Positions 193-6,728 of a stretch of DNA of 6,728 nucleotides are shown piece after piece. Positions within the stretch are counted from its first letter, which is position 1. Every line of letters starts with the position of its first letter. Where the stretch lies: NCBI GenBank assembly GCA_021781255.1, contig JAJXXG010000050.1, positions 1 through 6,728 on the forward strand, given 5' to 3'. The stretch comes from Acidobacteriota bacterium. GTDB taxonomy: Bacteria > Acidobacteriota > Terriglobia > Terriglobales > Acidobacteriaceae. A program made the translations under genes and the position numbers. The notes below the pieces were generated by a model. The model did not search any database. It worked only from the letters and a program-made list of their open reading frames with translations, and was not told the origin of the DNA.

Positions 193-1074
193 TTGCGCGA
201 AGCTTGGCGAGAACGCTTTGCTGCGTTCCCCCGTGTTCTGAGGGATCCGCAGCAACAACAGACCGTTGTTCCGGTACTTGGCGTCAACATCGGCGCGGAC
301 CAACTTGTCACAATGGCCGGTCCCTGCTCGGTGGAGACTGAGTCGCACCTGATGGCCACGGCACATCATGTTCGCCGTTGTGGCGCACGCATTCTGCGTG
401 GGGGCGCGTTTAAGCCGCGGAGCTCACCGTACAGCTTTCAAGGCCTTGGTGTTGAAGGGCTCAAGCTGCTGGCCGCCGCGCGCGAGGAAACCGGCCTGGC
501 AATTGTGACGGAGGTGATGTCGGAGTGCGACGTTGCGCTGGTGGCTGAATATGCCGACATCCTGCAGATCGGCTCACGCAACATGGAGAACTATGCGCTG
601 CTTGAAGCCGTGGCGCAGTCAGGTCGCCCCGTGCTGCTGAAGCGCGGAATGGTGGCGACGATTGCTGACTTTCTTCAATCGGCTCAAGTGATCTTGGCCA
701 ATGGCAATCCGCGAGTGATTCTGTGCGAGCGGGGAATCCGCACTTTCGACTCGACAATGCGGAACACATTCGACGCGGGTGCAATTGCCCTGCTTAAACA
801 TGTTTCGCACCTTCCGGTGATTGCAGATCCCAGCCACGCCGCGGGCTGCCGCGAAATGGTGCCTGCATTGGCGCGCGTTGCCATTGCTGCAGGCGCGGAT
901 GGCTTGCTGGTTGAAGTCCATCCCAATCCTGAACAAGCCTGGAGCGATGGCGAACAGTCACTCGACTTTACTGAGTTTGAACAGATGATGACGTCACTCA
1001 ATCCCTACCTTGCGTTGCGCGTGCTTGAAGCCCAAGAGCCAAACAGCGTGCGGTTGATGGAGGCTGTTGGATGA
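193..1074 (+). CDS. aroF: 3-deoxy-7-phosphoheptulonate (DAHP) synthase, type I-beta, core domain only
   Basis: This cytoplasmic enzyme condenses phosphoenolpyruvate with erythrose 4-phosphate to make DAHP, the first step of the shikimate route to aromatic compounds. The 293-residue product shows the whole TIM-barrel core: AGPCSVE (42-48), RGGAFKPR (69-76) followed by [10 protein letters not shown] (77-86), QIGSRNMEN (125-133), LLKRG (148-152), CERGIRTF (178-185), DPSHAAG (212-218) and VEVHPNP (240-246). The metal ligands are predicted to be C45, H215, E241 and D252. Their spacing (170, 26, 11) equals that recalled for the Thermotoga maritima enzyme, so the core has no net indels between them. 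The N-terminal ferredoxin-like domain that gives tyrosine/phenylalanine feedback control in that enzyme is absent, and no AroQ chorismate-mutase domain is present, so the enzyme is probably not feedback-inhibited in that way. The GAFKPR signature separates it from KDO-8-phosphate synthase. The start is TTG with GGAG eight bases upstream. The stop overlaps the next start (ATGA, 1071-1074), implying translational coupling to a secreted heme protein, which is unusual company. Confidence 0.93.
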
Positions 1075-2483
1075 GGGTTTGGGCGAAGGGATTTGTGGCA
1101 ACCGTATGCGTCGCACTGCTGGCGCCACTGTGCGGGTTTTCACCGTCCGTTGAGGGTAAGGTTGGTGCTGATTACATTGTGACGTCAGCGCCTTTCTATG
1201 TGCCGCTTGCGGAGTTGCATGGCCGGGAGCGATTCCCGCAGGGCGCTCAATTGCTGCTGGTTCACGACGGCAAGGCTAAACCCTTGGTGGAAGGTTTTGC
1301 GGAAACCGCGGATGCCGATGTCTCCTTTGACGCCAAGAGAGTCCTGTTTGCGGGCAAGCGCACGGCGGCCGATCCGTGGCAGATTTGGGAACTCACACTC
1401 AAGGATGGCTCGGTACGGAGGGTGATTGAAACCAAGACCGACGCCGAGCGCCCGTTCTATTTGCCCGGTGGCCGCATGGTGTGGGCACAGCGCACGCCCT
1501 CAGGATTCCGGGTTGAGTCGGCTGAGGATGGCCATCCGCCCAAGATTCCCTTCCTGAATCCGACGGCGGGTCCCGGTGTACTGCCACTCACCTATGTGCC
1601 GAGCAATACGTTTCCCACCGCGGTTCTTGCCGACGGGCGCATTCTCTTTGAATCAGGATTCCCACTTGGAGAGGATTCAACTCCCGAGTTGTATCTGGTC
1701 TACGCCGATGGCTCGAGCGTTGAATCCTATCGCTGCGATCATGGGCGAGCCCGTTGGGGTGGCTCGCAACTTTCCTCCGGCGACGTGGTCTTTACACATG
1801 GCCGATCGCTGGCGCGCTTCACTTCTGCGCTGGCGCATGAAGTACCGGTGGATGCGCCCAGTGCCTACTATGCCGGTGCAATTGCGGAAACAGCCTCCGG
1901 TTCGTGGCTGATGAGCGCGCGCGCAGGTGACGAATCGCGCTTTGCCATCCACCTGTGGAAGCCTGGAACCAGGCGAATGAAAACAGTGTTTGCCGAGCGC
2001 GGTAAAAATCTCGTCGAACCGGTTCTGGTGAATCCACGTGTGAAACCACTGCGTTTCCCTTCGGGATTGCATCATTGGAACTACGCCAACCTTCTGGTCC
2101 TCGATTCCAGGATGTCAATCGAAGGAGATTTGAGGCAGACGCCCACGTCGGTAAGGCTTGAGAGCCTTGACGCGAAGGGGCATGTCATTGTGAATGGAAC
2201 CGCGCCGGTCGCATCGGACGGTTCCTTCTTTGTGAAGGTCCCGGGGGATCGGCCCATTCGCTTCCTTCTGCTCGACCGCAAAGGTGTCGTGATGCGCCGC
2301 GAACGCGGCTGGTTCTGGGCGCGCAGTGGCGTGCAGCGAATCTGCGTCGGCTGTCATGCAGGACCGGCGCGCTCACCGGAAAATCGTGTGCCCGAGGTGC
2401 TGTTGCAAAACACCACTCCAGTCGACTTGACGGGAGCACAACTTCACGCGTCCGCGCAAAACACTTCATCGGGAGGCAAGTAG
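1071..2483 (+). CDS. Exported monoheme beta-propeller protein, hydrazine synthase alpha-subunit (middle domain)-like
   Basis: The product has 470 residues. A Sec signal peptide is visible (basic residues 2-6, hydrophobic 7-23). C21 is not in a proper lipobox, so it is not called a lipoprotein. Residues about 80-320 contain PD40/TolB-like strands, for example DADVSFDAKRVLFAG (81-95), ELYLVYADGSS (206-216) and SSGDVVFTHG (235-244), consistent with a beta-propeller. After SGLHHWNYANLL (331-342) comes a beta-rich segment with VASDGSFFVKVPGDRPIRF (380-398). Next is GWFWARSGVQRI and a single c-type heme site, CVGCH (425-429, proximal ligand H429). The order DGSFxVxVPxxRP, then an aromatic-rich stretch, then CxGCH is what I recall from proteins annotated with the hydrazine synthase alpha middle domain. 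Known anammox alpha subunits are about 800 residues with two hemes, so this is a shorter, one-heme relative. C222 is the only cysteine outside the signal peptide and heme site. GGAGG lies seven bases before the ATG. The exact reaction is unknown; an electron-transfer or heme-enzyme role in the periplasm is inferred. Confidence 0.85.
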   Translation: MRVWAKGFVATVCVALLAPLCGFSPSVEGKVGADYIVTSAPFYVPLAELHGRERFPQGAQLLLVHDGKAKPLVEGFAETADADVSFDAKRVLFAGKRTAADPWQIWELTLKDGSVRRVIETKTDAERPFYLPGGRMVWAQRTPSGFRVESAEDGHPPKIPFLNPTAGPGVLPLTYVPSNTFPTAVLADGRILFESGFPLGEDSTPELYLVYADGSSVESYRCDHGRARWGGSQLSSGDVVFTHGRSLARFTSALAHEVPVDAPSAYYAGAIAETASGSWLMSARAGDESRFAIHLWKPGTRRMKTVFAERGKNLVEPVLVNPRVKPLRFPSGLHHWNYANLLVLDSRMSIEGDLRQTPTSVRLESLDAKGHVIVNGTAPVASDGSFFVKVPGDRPIRFLLLDRKGVVMRRERGWFWARSGVQRICVGCHAGPARSPENRVPEVLLQNTTPVDLTGAQLHASAQNTSSGGK

Positions 2484-2485
2484 AG

Positions 2486-4207
2486 ATGATGATTCGTTCT
2501 CTTCTTCTTTTCTTAGGCGCCGTCTCGCTTGCCGCGGCGCAGAGTGCCATTCCTCCAACATCGCCTGTGGTGGATGCCGGCAAAGCTTTAACACAGCCGA
2601 CTATTCGCTTTGAGGACGCGACGCAGAAATCCGGAATCGACTTCGTGCACAGTATCGGATCGGCCAAGCTGGGATCACTGCTGGAAGGCACCGGCGCCGG
2701 CTGCGTGTGGTTTGACTACAACAATTCCGGCCGGCCGTCTCTTTATGTGGTTAACGGGCGCCCCCTTGCGGATGATATGCATCCCTTTCCCCTGAAAGTG
2801 AAGCCAAATCCGCTGCCGCACAACCATCTCTATCGCAATGACGGCAATGGCCACTTTACTGACGTGACCAAGGATTCGGGTCTCAATCCCGATATGTACA
2901 GTGATGCCGTTACGGCCGCCGACTATGACAACGACGGCTACGAAGATCTGCTGGTGACCGGCTATGGGAAGGTTGTTCTTTACCACAATGATGGCAATGG
3001 CCACTTTACTGATGTGACCGCGAAGGCTGGCATCAACGTGAAGGGTTGGGCCATCAGTTCCACATGGCTCGACTACGACAAAGACGGCTGCGTGGATCTT
3101 TTCGTCGGACGCTATGTGAAGTTTGATCCCAAATATCGCGCCTTCTATGCCGCGGATAATTATCCCGGTCCGCTCGATTATGCAGGCGAGACCAACATGC
3201 TGTTCCACAACAACTGCGACGGCACGTTTACAGATGTTTCCAAGCAGTCTGGAATCAGCGCCTTCATCGGTCGCACGATGGGAGTGACCGCAGCCGATTT
3301 TGACAACGACGGATGGGATGACATTTACGTTGCCAACGACAGCACACAGAACTTTCTCTTTCACAACAATCACGACGGAACGTTCAAGGAAATTGCCAAC
3401 GATACCAACTCTGCCTATGGACAGAATGGAGAAGCAACTTCGTCGATGGGCCCGGTGGCTGCGGACTTCTGGGGGCGTGGAGTTCTTGACTTGTGGGTGA
3501 CTGACGGAAGCTATAACCGCTTCCTGAAGAACATGGGTGCCCCTCAGCTCGGGTCGCCTGACCTGCCGAAAGAGTGGAGTGGCTTCGATGACGTGACCGC
3601 AGCTGCGCGCATCTCGCAGACTGAGGCGCAGTACGTGAGCTGGGGGAGCGGCGTCTTCGATTTCGACAACGATGGGCTGCTGGACATTCTGGTGTTTCAT
3701 GGCGGCCTGATCCACATGATTCCGCAAGAGCACACAGTGTTTCGTGGGATCGGCAATGGAAAATTTGCCGATGTATCTCGGGAAGCCGGCCAAGTTCTTG
3801 GAAATCGAACAGTAGCGCGCGGTGCATGCTTTGCCGACTATGACAGTGATGGCAAGGTGGACTCGTACCTGGTGAATCTCGGCGCCGAGGGAACGCTTCT
3901 TCACAATGTGTCGACGGACACCGGGCATTGGATCGAAATCAAACTGGTAGGCACCAAGAGCAACCGTGACGGCATTGGTGCGCGCATCGAGATAATGGCT
4001 GGAGACAAGCGCCAGACCGCGGAACGTGTGGCGAGCTCTGGATATCTCTCACAGAATGATGGACGCGTGCACTTTGGACTTGGCGCTGCCAAGACGATCG
4101 ACAAGCTCACGGTGCGCTGGCCCAGCGGAATTGTGCAGACGCTCAATGAGGAGCCGGTTGATCGCGTACTGACCGTGCAGGAGCCGGGAGAAAGGAAGCC
4201 AAGATGA
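2486..4207 (+). CDS. Exported CRTAC1-type protein: FG-GAP/VCBS beta-propeller with C-terminal ASPIC/UnbV domain
   Basis: The 573-residue product starts with a clear signal peptide, likely cleaved near A18. An integrin-like FG-GAP propeller follows, with calcium-loop motifs of the form DxDxDGxxD at 146-154, 196-204, 271-279, 392-400 and 451-459. Degenerate versions at 77-85 (DYNNSGRPS) and 327-335 (DFWGRGVLD) have lost some ligand positions. Seven loops fit a seven-bladed propeller. From GHW at 480 to about 565 is an ASPIC/UnbV domain, recognised by IGARIEI, VASSGYLSQND, VHFGLG and LTVRWPSG. Proteins of this build are secreted and calcium-binding; they are common in Acidobacteriota, Planctomycetota and Bacteroidota, and their biochemical role is mostly unknown. 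No heme motif is present. GGGAGG lies nine bases before the first of two adjacent ATG codons. The gene starts two bases after the preceding stop, and its own stop overlaps the next start (ATGA, 4204-4207). In this context it may be a structural or substrate partner of the neighbouring heme proteins; that is inference. Confidence 0.93.
   Translation: MMIRSLLLFLGAVSLAAAQSAIPPTSPVVDAGKALTQPTIRFEDATQKSGIDFVHSIGSAKLGSLLEGTGAGCVWFDYNNSGRPSLYVVNGRPLADDMHPFPLKVKPNPLPHNHLYRNDGNGHFTDVTKDSGLNPDMYSDAVTAADYDNDGYEDLLVTGYGKVVLYHNDGNGHFTDVTAKAGINVKGWAISSTWLDYDKDGCVDLFVGRYVKFDPKYRAFYAADNYPGPLDYAGETNMLFHNNCDGTFTDVSKQSGISAFIGRTMGVTAADFDNDGWDDIYVANDSTQNFLFHNNHDGTFKEIANDTNSAYGQNGEATSSMGPVAADFWGRGVLDLWVTDGSYNRFLKNMGAPQLGSPDLPKEWSGFDDVTAAARISQTEAQYVSWGSGVFDFDNDGLLDILVFHGGLIHMIPQEHTVFRGIGNGKFADVSREAGQVLGNRTVARGACFADYDSDGKVDSYLVNLGAEGTLLHNVSTDTGHWIEIKLVGTKSNRDGIGARIEIMAGDKRQTAERVASSGYLSQNDGRVHFGLGAAKTIDKLTVRWPSGIVQTLNEEPVDRVLTVQEPGERKPR
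2837..2869 (+). repeat. Copy 1 of a 33-base intragenic repeat encoding an FG-GAP blade strand
   Basis: This segment encodes NDGNGHFTDVT (residues 118-128). It matches 2987-3019 at 31 of 33 bases, and both differences are synonymous GAC/GAT changes. The copies are 150 bases apart, exactly 50 codons, which is also the spacing between the calcium loops at residues 146 and 196. The near identity at DNA level suggests recent blade duplication or gene conversion. Confidence 0.85.
2987..3019 (+). repeat. Copy 2 of the 33-base intragenic repeat
   Basis: This is the partner of 2837-2869 and encodes the same eleven residues at 168-178. Twenty consecutive bases (2993-3012) are identical to 2843-2862. 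The other blades of this protein, such as HNNCDGTFTDVS and HNNHDGTFKEIA, are related in protein sequence but diverged in DNA, so only this adjacent pair looks recently homogenised. Confidence 0.85.
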
Positions 4208-6249
4208 TGAACAGGCTTCTGCGCTTTCGCCGAATGCACGCGGCTTTTGTGGCAGTTCTTGCTGCGCTGGCAGTGCTATGCGGCGTTGGTTTGTGGGATG
4301 TCGCAACCGTCAGGGCAGCCACTAACGCCAGCAAGGATGAAATTCTGAATTATGCCTCGCCGCTGGAAATGATTTTCTCGCACGACGGTTCGCGTCTCTA
4401 TCTGCTTTGTCAAAGCGGCGAAGTGAGGGTTTTTAACGGGCGCACCTATACATGGATTAAGACCATTCCCGTCGGCCATGAGCCGCGTGGATTTTCGCTT
4501 TCTCCTGATGAAAGCCGTCTCTTTGTCGCCAACTCATGGAACGACACCATCTCCGTCATCGACACGCGTGCGCTGGCAGTGGTTGCCACGTGGCATGTGG
4601 GCATGGAACCTTCCAGCGTAGTGGAGGGACCCTCGGGCAAGTACCTTTATGTAGCCAATCGAATCAGCAACGACGTGGCCGTGCTGAATGCCCAAACCGG
4701 CAGTGAAGTGAAGAGACTGGCGGCCGGGCGCGGCGCGAGCTACATGACTCTCTCTCCCGATGGACGCAACTTATATGTTACCCACGTGTATCCGAATCCC
4801 ACGCCACCACGCACACCGCCTGAGTCAGAGGTCACGGTAATTGATACGCGTACGGCGGAAGTGGTGAACCGCATCCCGCTGCACAGCATTGCCGGAGTCT
4901 TTCATATTGCTGTTAGTTCGGACGGACGGCTTGGAGTCGCGGCAGAGATGCATCCGAAAAATCTGGTGACCATCACTTCTGTAGAGCACGGATGGGTTTT
5001 TGAAGACACGCTGGAGTTGTTCGGTGCGGATGCAGGAAGCAAACCGGTTGAAGTGCCTCTGGATAACCTGGACAGCTATGCGGCGCGCCCATTTGGCGTA
5101 GCGATTACACCAGATAACAGGCGTCTTTATGTAAGCAGTGGTGGCTCTGAGCTCATGGTTGCGATCGACGTTCCGAGCCTGCTGCGCTATATCCAGACGC
5201 ATCGTCCGCCTTTTGCCTACAACCTTGCTGCCAGTGCTAATTACGTCATAAAGCGCATTCCGGTGGGCCACGATCCGCGTGGCGTGACTGTAAGTCCGGA
5301 CGGGCGGCGAGTTCTGGTGGCCAACCGGCTGGATGACACCATTAGCGTGATCGACACGCAGAGCAACAACGTAGTTTCAACGATTCATCTGGCCGGATCG
5401 AAGCAACTGTGGTCACTAAAGATGGCCCTGAAGGTCTACGGAGAGGTGATTAACACGCCAGTTGGCCGGTTGCGTTGCCAATATTGCCACATCGATCCGC
5501 GCCATCGTTACGCGCCGAAGATGGATTTGACAGAGAAGCAGGAAATTCAGGCGCTGCGCCGTGGAGAACAGCTCTTCTACACTGCACACTACTCGTTCCA
5601 CGGAGGCATTGGCTGCGCGAACTGTCATATCGATTCGACCTACGACGGATTGCAGTGGGATTTGGAACCGAACGGCCTGGGTCGCAACATTCTGGACAAT
5701 CGTCTGCTGGAAGACATCAAGGACACCGCACCCTTCAAGTGGAACGGGACGAATCCCAACCTGCCAACCGAATGCGGGCCGCGAACGGAAAAGTATTTCT
5801 GGCGATCGCAGAATTATGACGATCTCGCCTTGGCGGATTTAACCACATACGTCAACAGCCTTCCAGCAAGACCCAATCGCTGGCTCAGGCCTGGTGGCGA
5901 GCTGACACCCGCCCAGGAGCGCGGCAAGGCCATCTTCGATCGCACGGTCGACAACTTCGGTAAACCAATTCCGCTGGCCAATCGCTGCAGCTATTGTCAC
6001 AGCGGACCGCTGGGTACCGACCTGAAGAAATTTGATGTGGGTACGAAGGGAACTGGTGATAGCTCGGGGCTGTTCGATACTCCGCAGCTGAAGAACATCG
6101 CACTCACTGCGCCTTATTTGCACGATGGTTCGGCCGCGACCCTTGAAGAAATCTGGACAGTGCATAACCCGCAGGACAAACACGGGCGCACGAATGACCT
6201 GACCAAGGACCAACTGAATGACTTGGTTGAATATCTGAGGACTCGATGA
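4204..6249 (+). CDS. Exported triheme fusion: YVTN beta-propeller plus CCP/MauG-like diheme peroxidase module
   Basis: The product has 681 residues. The N-terminus is a signal peptide or anchor (basic to residue 10, hydrophobic 13-30, possible cleavage near VRA-A at 38). Residues about 48-410 form a YVTN/YncE-like propeller with blades such as LSPDESRLFVANSWNDTISV and the paired PVGHxPRG motifs at 89 and 353. The C-terminal part has three heme sites: CQYCH (425-429), CANCH (471-475) and CSYCH (595-599). The last two, 124 residues apart, belong to a diheme peroxidase-type module with pseudo-symmetric motifs TAPFKWNG (508-515) and TAPYLHDG (635-642), the second preceded by TPQLKNIAL. The first site is an extra heme in the linker between propeller and module. 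No methionine occurs after residue 599, so the Met ligand of classical cytochrome c peroxidases is missing; H640, H654 and H660 are alternatives. AGGA lies seven bases before the start. The propeller-plus-CCP make-up recalls the hydrazine synthase beta and gamma subunits joined in one chain. A periplasmic heme oxidoreductase or protein-modifying enzyme is likely; the substrate is unknown. Confidence 0.9.
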   Translation: MMNRLLRFRRMHAAFVAVLAALAVLCGVGLWDVATVRAATNASKDEILNYASPLEMIFSHDGSRLYLLCQSGEVRVFNGRTYTWIKTIPVGHEPRGFSLSPDESRLFVANSWNDTISVIDTRALAVVATWHVGMEPSSVVEGPSGKYLYVANRISNDVAVLNAQTGSEVKRLAAGRGASYMTLSPDGRNLYVTHVYPNPTPPRTPPESEVTVIDTRTAEVVNRIPLHSIAGVFHIAVSSDGRLGVAAEMHPKNLVTITSVEHGWVFEDTLELFGADAGSKPVEVPLDNLDSYAARPFGVAITPDNRRLYVSSGGSELMVAIDVPSLLRYIQTHRPPFAYNLAASANYVIKRIPVGHDPRGVTVSPDGRRVLVANRLDDTISVIDTQSNNVVSTIHLAGSKQLWSLKMALKVYGEVINTPVGRLRCQYCHIDPRHRYAPKMDLTEKQEIQALRRGEQLFYTAHYSFHGGIGCANCHIDSTYDGLQWDLEPNGLGRNILDNRLLEDIKDTAPFKWNGTNPNLPTECGPRTEKYFWRSQNYDDLALADLTTYVNSLPARPNRWLRPGGELTPAQERGKAIFDRTVDNFGKPIPLANRCSYCHSGPLGTDLKKFDVGTKGTGDSSGLFDTPQLKNIALTAPYLHDGSAATLEEIWTVHNPQDKHGRTNDLTKDQLNDLVEYLRTR

Positions 6250-6262
6250 AAGGACGGCAAGC

Positions 6263-6728
6263 ATGAAGAGCGCAATCAAGAATCTGTATCTGGGCGCGGC
6301 GCTTGTGGCCTCGGCGACGCTTGCAATTGCCGCTCCCTCCAAGCCGCCCATGATGCCGCATTATCGTTGGGTGAACTACACCACCAGAAACGGCCTGCCC
6401 AACAATCACGTTTATGCAGTGCTGGTGGATGGAAATCGCATCTGGGCAGGTACAGACGATGGACTGGCTCTTTACGAAAAAGGCAAGTGGAAGACTTACA
6501 CGACCAAGGATGGGCTGGCGCAGCAGGCTGTACTCTCGCTCGCACTGGACAAACGGACCGGTGACGTTTGGGCGGGGACAATGGGTGGGTTGAGCCGCAT
6601 CTCTGGTGGACGCATCGATACCTTTACGCAATTGAACTCAGGCCTGAGCAACGACATTGTCTATGGCGTAGCAGTGCAGGGCGAGTATGTGTGGGTCGCG
6701 ACGGCCGCAGGAGCCTGCCGCCTGAATC
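6263..6728 (+). CDS. Exported regulator-propeller (Reg_prop) repeat protein, 3' end outside the window
   Basis: The frame is open from ATG 6263 to the window end, giving 155 complete codons. AGGA (6251-6254) lies eight bases upstream, and the gene starts 13 bases after the preceding stop. Residues 1-24 are a signal peptide (hydrophobic 8-23, cleavage near AIAA). Three two-component-regulator-propeller blades follow, marked by WAGT at 61-64, WAGT at 103-106 and WVAT at 144-147, about 41-42 residues apart. Before each is a short GL-type motif: GLPNNHV (44-50), GLAQQAV (84-90) and GLSNDIV (127-133). In the family such blades form the sensor of hybrid two-component kinases or stand-alone secreted propellers. 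Whether a transmembrane segment, a kinase or diguanylate cyclase domain follows cannot be seen. If it does, this protein would be the sensor for the operon; if not, it is a fourth secreted propeller. Confidence 0.88.
   Translation, partial: MKSAIKNLYLGAALVASATLAIAAPSKPPMMPHYRWVNYTTRNGLPNNHVYAVLVDGNRIWAGTDDGLALYEKGKWKTYTTKDGLAQQAVLSLALDKRTGDVWAGTMGGLSRISGGRIDTFTQLNSGLSNDIVYGVAVQGEYVWVATAAGACRLN

Follow-up and report, generated by a model that had tools for sequence, protein, structure and literature searches.

Can a gene cluster of an Acidobacteriota bacterium encode relatives of hydrazine synthase (HZS), and would its products then make hydrazine? This question was raised by a stretch of 6,728 nucleotides (contig JAJXXG010000050.1 of assembly GCA_021781255.1; the whole stretch analyzed is hereafter called the window), in which five genes lie head-to-tail on the + strand, the strand of all window features given below. 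The original prediction held that the window could encode a relative of HZS, shorter and with joined beta and gamma subunits, and that it was more likely to perform a different heme chemistry than to synthesize hydrazine. The kinship is now backed by sequence, fold and gene co-occurrence, and residue comparisons speak against hydrazine synthesis. We are almost certain that the window proteins are kin to HZS subunits, and consider it highly probable that they do not synthesize hydrazine. Until recently, HZS was regarded as an enzyme without relatives (PMC12758564).

The gene at 1071..2483 (hereafter alpha) encodes an HzsA-like protein of 470 residues, composed of a beta-propeller and an HZS-alpha middle domain. 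Its sole sequence match in the PDB was 5c2v_A, from HzsABC of Kuenenia stuttgartiensis, and in fold comparison its predicted model aligned with 5c2v_D over 424 residues. The anticipated likeness to the alpha middle domain thus extends far past PD40 strands; the protein is truly related to HzsA. The heme-c motif CVGCH (2343..2357) is equivalent to that of heme alpha-I, and both its Cys residues and its His were present in 197/197 aligned rows, the set used for all alpha residue counts. The alpha-II cytochrome domain is absent from the window protein, which contains this single CXXCH motif and stops shortly after it.

The gene at 4204..6249 (hereafter betagamma) encodes a fusion of 681 residues with three CXXCH motifs, in which the HzsB match runs along the propeller and the HzsC match falls into two stretches. 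A profile built from 28 members scored 179.8 bits with HzsB and 115 with HzsC, compared with 51.9 for MbnH (6e1c) and 33.2 for 1iqc. In the fold search, 5c2v_B ranked first for the propeller (YVTN type, 4348..5373); by sequence, the match to 5c2v_B spans residues 52-385, including a segment aligned to the HzsB loop (residues about 248-300), which in HZS is directed towards the tunnel. Conservation of this loop was considered as proof of a tunnel and dropped (0.80 for the loop vs 0.74 for the rest of the propeller). The C-terminal part is a diheme module of the MauG/CCP kind (PF03150, 29.2 bits at a cut-off of 25.6), with the motifs of heme gamma-I (CANCH, 5614..5628) and heme gamma-II (CSYCH, 5986..6000). 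The predicted joining of an HzsB-like propeller to an HzsC-like diheme module was therefore confirmed, with one addition, namely a linker motif CQYCH (5476..5490) which precedes the HzsC-like part and has no counterpart in HzsB or HzsC. This extra motif occurred in 64/184 rows, the window included, and was absent in the 120 others; the 184 rows, used for all gamma residue counts, are biased to close relatives of the window, its best database matches making up 119 of them.

We then asked whether the two genes travel together, for which an alpha-only query was used and the best 80 of 88 relatives were taken for neighbourhood counts. The fusion gene was located 3' of alpha in 67/67 loci with at least 2.5 kb of downstream sequence, so the survey proposed with the original prediction ended in an unbroken pairing rather than in a generic fusion without co-occurrence. 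Between them lies a gene (2486..4207) for a CRTAC1/FG-GAP protein of 573 residues with an UnbV_ASPIC domain and, by inspection, a signal peptide. A CRTAC gene was present 3' of alpha in 77/79 loci with at least 300 bases of sequence, the exceptions being L036 (see below) and L079, whose alpha gene is disrupted and closely followed by the contig end.

As for hydrazine synthesis, the residues to be compared are the HZS ligands as numbered in PMC12607021 and PMC12758564, which include Tyr591 as ligand of the heme alpha-I iron. At the place of Tyr591, with the same spacing, the window has Ala433 (2367..2369); the 197 rows contained Glu 144 times, Ala 52 times and Gln once. At the place of HzsC His144, Trp513 (5740..5742) was found in 184/184 rows, Trp being the residue of MauG and CCP (a comparison drawn in PMC12758564). 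The place of Asp168 is taken by Thr528 or Glu529, depending on how a one-residue gap is set. Other gamma residues are kept: Cys524 (5773..5775) aligns with HzsC Cys165, the third thioether link to heme gamma-I, and was Cys in 179/184 rows, while His660 (6181..6183), at the place of the heme gamma-II ligand His332, was present in 184/184. Scores with the NCBIfam models of HZS were all below cut-off (alpha 49.5 vs 800, fusion 169.3 vs 1250, beta 142.9 vs 560, gamma 74.6 vs 625). Since Tyr591 is replaced by Ala, alpha-II is missing, His144 is replaced by Trp and these scores lie far under the cut-offs, the window does not appear to encode a hydrazine synthase.

In a quick tree that included 40 of the 52 Ala433 rows, all 40 fell into a single cluster together with one Glu row (support 98; two changes needed); this indicates that the window belongs to a sub-clade which lost the acidic residue. 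Ala433 and the linker heme are not strictly coupled, as Glu433 and three motifs occur together in L009, L019, L032, L036 and L054. In the same tree, the alpha of one record labelled Betaproteobacteria (L012) grouped within Acidobacteriota, possibly reflecting a binning error. Four residues ahead of the heme motif, Val421 (2331-2333) is peculiar to the window, all other 196/197 rows having Glu. Furthermore, Cys222 (1734..1736), within a YRCDH motif, was Cys in 191/197 rows. Its CD motif first hinted at equivalence with the zinc ligand Cys303 of HzsA, which holds the metal together with the CXXCH histidine; in the profile alignment Cys303 falls one residue beyond, so that Cys222 lies at most one residue away in an ambiguous register. 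This place has no Cys in distant relatives such as L091 and L094, and Cys303 is described as not conserved in the homologs of PMC12758564 nor in Scalinduaceae. In one distant alpha (L091:9183-11234), an alpha-II-like domain contains the motif CSTAACH, a CXXCH expanded by two residues, at the place of the second heme motif of HzsA.

To estimate distribution, the Pfam model of the alpha domain (PF18582) was searched in 396 sampled Acidobacteriota genomes and was found in 47, at 60 places. Twenty of these places were inspected, and alpha adjoined CRTAC in 14, one of which (L101) probably duplicates L026. The fusion was present as well in ten of the 14; in the other four, the contig ended inside CRTAC or at most 1.4 kb past it. 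As for the remaining places, L104 had a weaker alpha match (62 bits) and no partners, and around L103 and L105-L108 none of the alpha, CRTAC and betagamma profiles reached 45 bits. In these last five the domain lies in open frames of 762-1057 residues, and in a further case (G039:C502) in one of 1367 residues; such frames perhaps represent a second use of the heme domain. As PF18582 occurs outside the trio, 47/396 is not a count of trios. A search with the window alpha returned at least 3379 proteins at E <=0.001 among 7999 scored candidates, not necessarily all of them trio members. The named close relatives were Acidobacteriaceae, Terracidiphilus and other Acidobacteriota.

The cluster is flanked by further linked genes. 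Upstream, the catalytic domain of a DAHP synthase of Bacillus subtilis type is encoded at 193..1074, its stop codon overlapping the start of alpha by 4 bases, and such 4-base start/stop overlaps occur at two gene junctions of the window. Downstream, a Reg_prop propeller protein with a signal peptide (by inspection) begins at 6263 and runs to the contig end at 6728, beyond which its 3' part lies. Reg_prop was linked in 63/64 testable loci, with L036 the exception, and DAHP synthase was located 5' of alpha in 70/77. At L036:8845-12524, alpha and betagamma stand without CRTAC and Reg_prop and Asp occupies the place of Cys165; this locus lies about 21 kb from a complete cluster (L030) on the same contig and seems to be a paralog that lost its CRTAC gene.

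The DAHP synthase of the cluster matched TIGR01361 with 362 bits and NF006421 over positions 69-328 of 338; nothing in it corresponds to positions 1-68 of the PRK08673 model. At least two DAHP synthases over the cut-off were detected in 20/20 genomes searched, and one of them adjoined alpha in 18, in which one to four further copies above the cut-off lay elsewhere. The copy in the cluster is thus additional to the others, and may serve the complex. In Occallatibacter savannae (L044), genes for a TPR/FG-GAP/UnbV protein and an amidase lie upstream of the cluster, and those for a RidA-like and a solute-binding protein lie downstream of it. Anywhere within the 44 loci with full flanks, RidA-like proteins were found in 41 and solute-binding proteins in 43; the contig of the window stops short of their position. 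The tally of the upstream TPR/FG-GAP gene (78/80) was left unused, because its repeats can match the CRTAC gene too.

Taken together, we lean towards a branch of the HZS family outside anammox, built around an exported set of alpha, betagamma and CRTAC1 proteins, a reading that builds on the homology, gene pairing and residue changes observed and that we hold to be rather probable as a whole. According to it, the three proteins would be joined in one complex, an oxidant would bind heme gamma-I, and electrons would pass via Trp513 to heme gamma-II and, in the sub-clade of the window, to the linker heme, while the alpha heme might act as a second site or an electron port. A reaction of oxidase or peroxidase type at such a two-site heme complex is our best guess, a tentative one which we would not call probable. 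The linked DAHP synthase, together with the RidA-like and solute-binding proteins of relatives, suggests a small aromatic or amine metabolite as substrate, by guilt of association. A bolder version, which we consider improbable, pictures a two-site heme machine in which, as in HZS, a reactive small molecule leaves the gamma heme, crosses the propeller and arrives at the alpha heme, but is coupled to an aromatic or amine metabolite that the cluster's own DAHP synthase supplies; the complex would then be an exported enzyme for N- or O-transfer, widespread in Acidobacteria, whose alpha heme would have an acidic ligand (Glu) in most members, lost in the sub-clade of the window.

Several observations weigh against this interpretation. 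By sequence, the archaeal YVTN protein 1l0q scored above HzsB (203.4 vs 179.8 bits), in three short repeated stretches, and the gamma half of the betagamma model was poor, with low confidence. The locus L036 has alpha and betagamma without CRTAC, so that CRTAC may be dispensable. The Cys165 equivalent, which in HZS gamma takes part in a heme link said to occur nowhere else, is retained, and the chemistry could thus be nearer to that of HZS gamma (nitric oxide reduction) than to that of peroxidases. Finally, a multiheme cytochrome of family PF13447, the one family searched for in relatives with hydrazine dehydrogenase in mind, was found in 18/42 genomes with the alpha domain, so that a nitrogen chemistry is conceivable.

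Among the alternatives, the idea that generic propeller and CCP domains resemble HZS by chance and adjoin each other by coincidence has a practically negligible probability. Although YVTN and CCP domains are common and 1l0q surpasses HzsB by sequence, the idea is refuted by the pairing of alpha and fusion in every testable locus; besides, HzsA alone matches alpha among solved sequences, with the long fold alignment described above, and HzsC scores well above other diheme enzymes. The opposite extreme is a shortened but working hydrazine synthase, in which nitric oxide would be reduced at heme gamma-I and the resulting hydroxylamine tunnelled to heme alpha-I and joined with ammonium. The homology of all three subunits, the retained equivalents of Cys165 and His332 and the HzsB loop segment, aligned throughout, would suit such an enzyme; the changes at Tyr591 and His144, the probable one at Asp168 and the lack of alpha-II would not. 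On Ala433, Trp513 and the NCBIfam cut-offs we reject hydrazine synthesis, PMC12758564 argues likewise for its homologs, and a working synthase is very unlikely.

Two further explanations concern the reaction of a complex that makes no hydrazine. Betagamma might be a maturase similar to MauG or MbnH, oxidising Trp or Tyr of alpha or of the neighbouring CRTAC1 protein. Trp at the MauG position and the near-constant place of CRTAC directly after alpha are consistent with this, as is the mean column identity of CRTAC, the highest of the three proteins (69% vs 52% and 59%, from the fewest rows, 18 vs 37 and 28). However, HzsC is clearly nearer to the module than MbnH, CRTAC is missing in one locus and no modified residue is known, so that we regard a maturase as unlikely. 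Somewhat less doubtful, though still not likely, is a complex for electron transfer or for detoxification of nitric oxide or peroxide, in which gamma would reduce the toxic molecule and alpha and the other hemes would be mere electron carriers. The heme content of distant fusions points in this direction: six of ten that were read had 6 to 10 CXXCH motifs (for example L091:4670-7525, L093:951-3458 and L096:5395-8205), and Pfam found cytochrome c554 modules in L091 and L093, the two multi-CXXCH fusions scanned. The linker motif fits as well where it occurs, but most rows have none, and simple electron transfer would hardly need two propellers and a CRTAC protein.

All three HZS subunits have co-inherited relatives in many Acidobacteriota, including Occallatibacter savannae AB23 (L044), which presumably can be grown. 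The activity of the older, non-anammox HZS fold could thereby be studied by genetic and biochemical means without anammox enrichments. Matches to PF18582 or HZS-like sequences in soil metagenomes are by themselves no marker of anammox.

Comparison with known systems places the window as follows. It shares with HzsABC of K. stuttgartiensis (5c2v) the folds of the alpha propeller, the alpha middle domain and the beta propeller, as well as the gamma diheme module by sequence; in contrast to it, beta and gamma are fused, a linker heme is added, a CRTAC gene stands between, and alpha comes first in the gene order, whereas beta and gamma lead in anammox bacteria (order from PMC12758564). Enzymes of the MauG, MbnH and diheme CCP type likewise have two CXXCH motifs in the C-terminal module and Trp in the same position, but the window module is fused behind a propeller, has an extra Cys at the Cys165 place and is closer to HzsC. 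In Phycisphaerae UBA1845, PMC10732223 describes hzsABC-like genes and suggests a wider enzyme family; there too, in a lineage apart from the known anammox bacteria, an hzsA-like gene precedes a fused hzsBC-like one, yet the phylum differs and the two genes adjoin directly, without CRTAC between.

The window cluster is of the kind published in December 2025 (PMC12758564; Genome Biol Evol evaf244), where clusters of alpha and fused betagamma homologs were divided into clades I-III, with 300 to 1,000 matches in GTDB species, a RefSeq subset examined closely and Paludibaculum fermentans in clade I; its clade lists may include close relatives. CRTAC1 stands between alpha and betagamma in clades I and II, as in the window, and upstream of alpha in clade III. 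Tyr591 is missing and Trp takes the His144 place in those homologs, as here, and the alpha proteins of clades II and III also have no alpha-II and a shorter C-terminus. For clade I, the paper gives a Cys aligned with Cys165 and additional heme modules of c554 type, for clade II no extra heme motif and for clade III one. The window shows features of more than one clade: its genes are ordered as in clades I and II, it has a single extra heme motif as in clade III, and it keeps the Cys165 equivalent, given for clade I, in the shorter form of alpha. At the spacing of Tyr591, the window family has Glu or Ala, whereas the published alignment has a gap. The linked DAHP synthase and Reg_prop genes find no mention in the main text portions of PMC12758564, supplements aside, and the DAHP synthase link and the Ala433 sub-clade find none either there or in the literature searched. 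Our results agree with the published ones and extend them by counts for Acidobacteriota, by the Cys165 equivalent in a cluster with the shorter alpha, by residue 433 (Glu or Ala) and its Ala sub-clade, by how often the linker heme occurs and by the association with a DAHP synthase.

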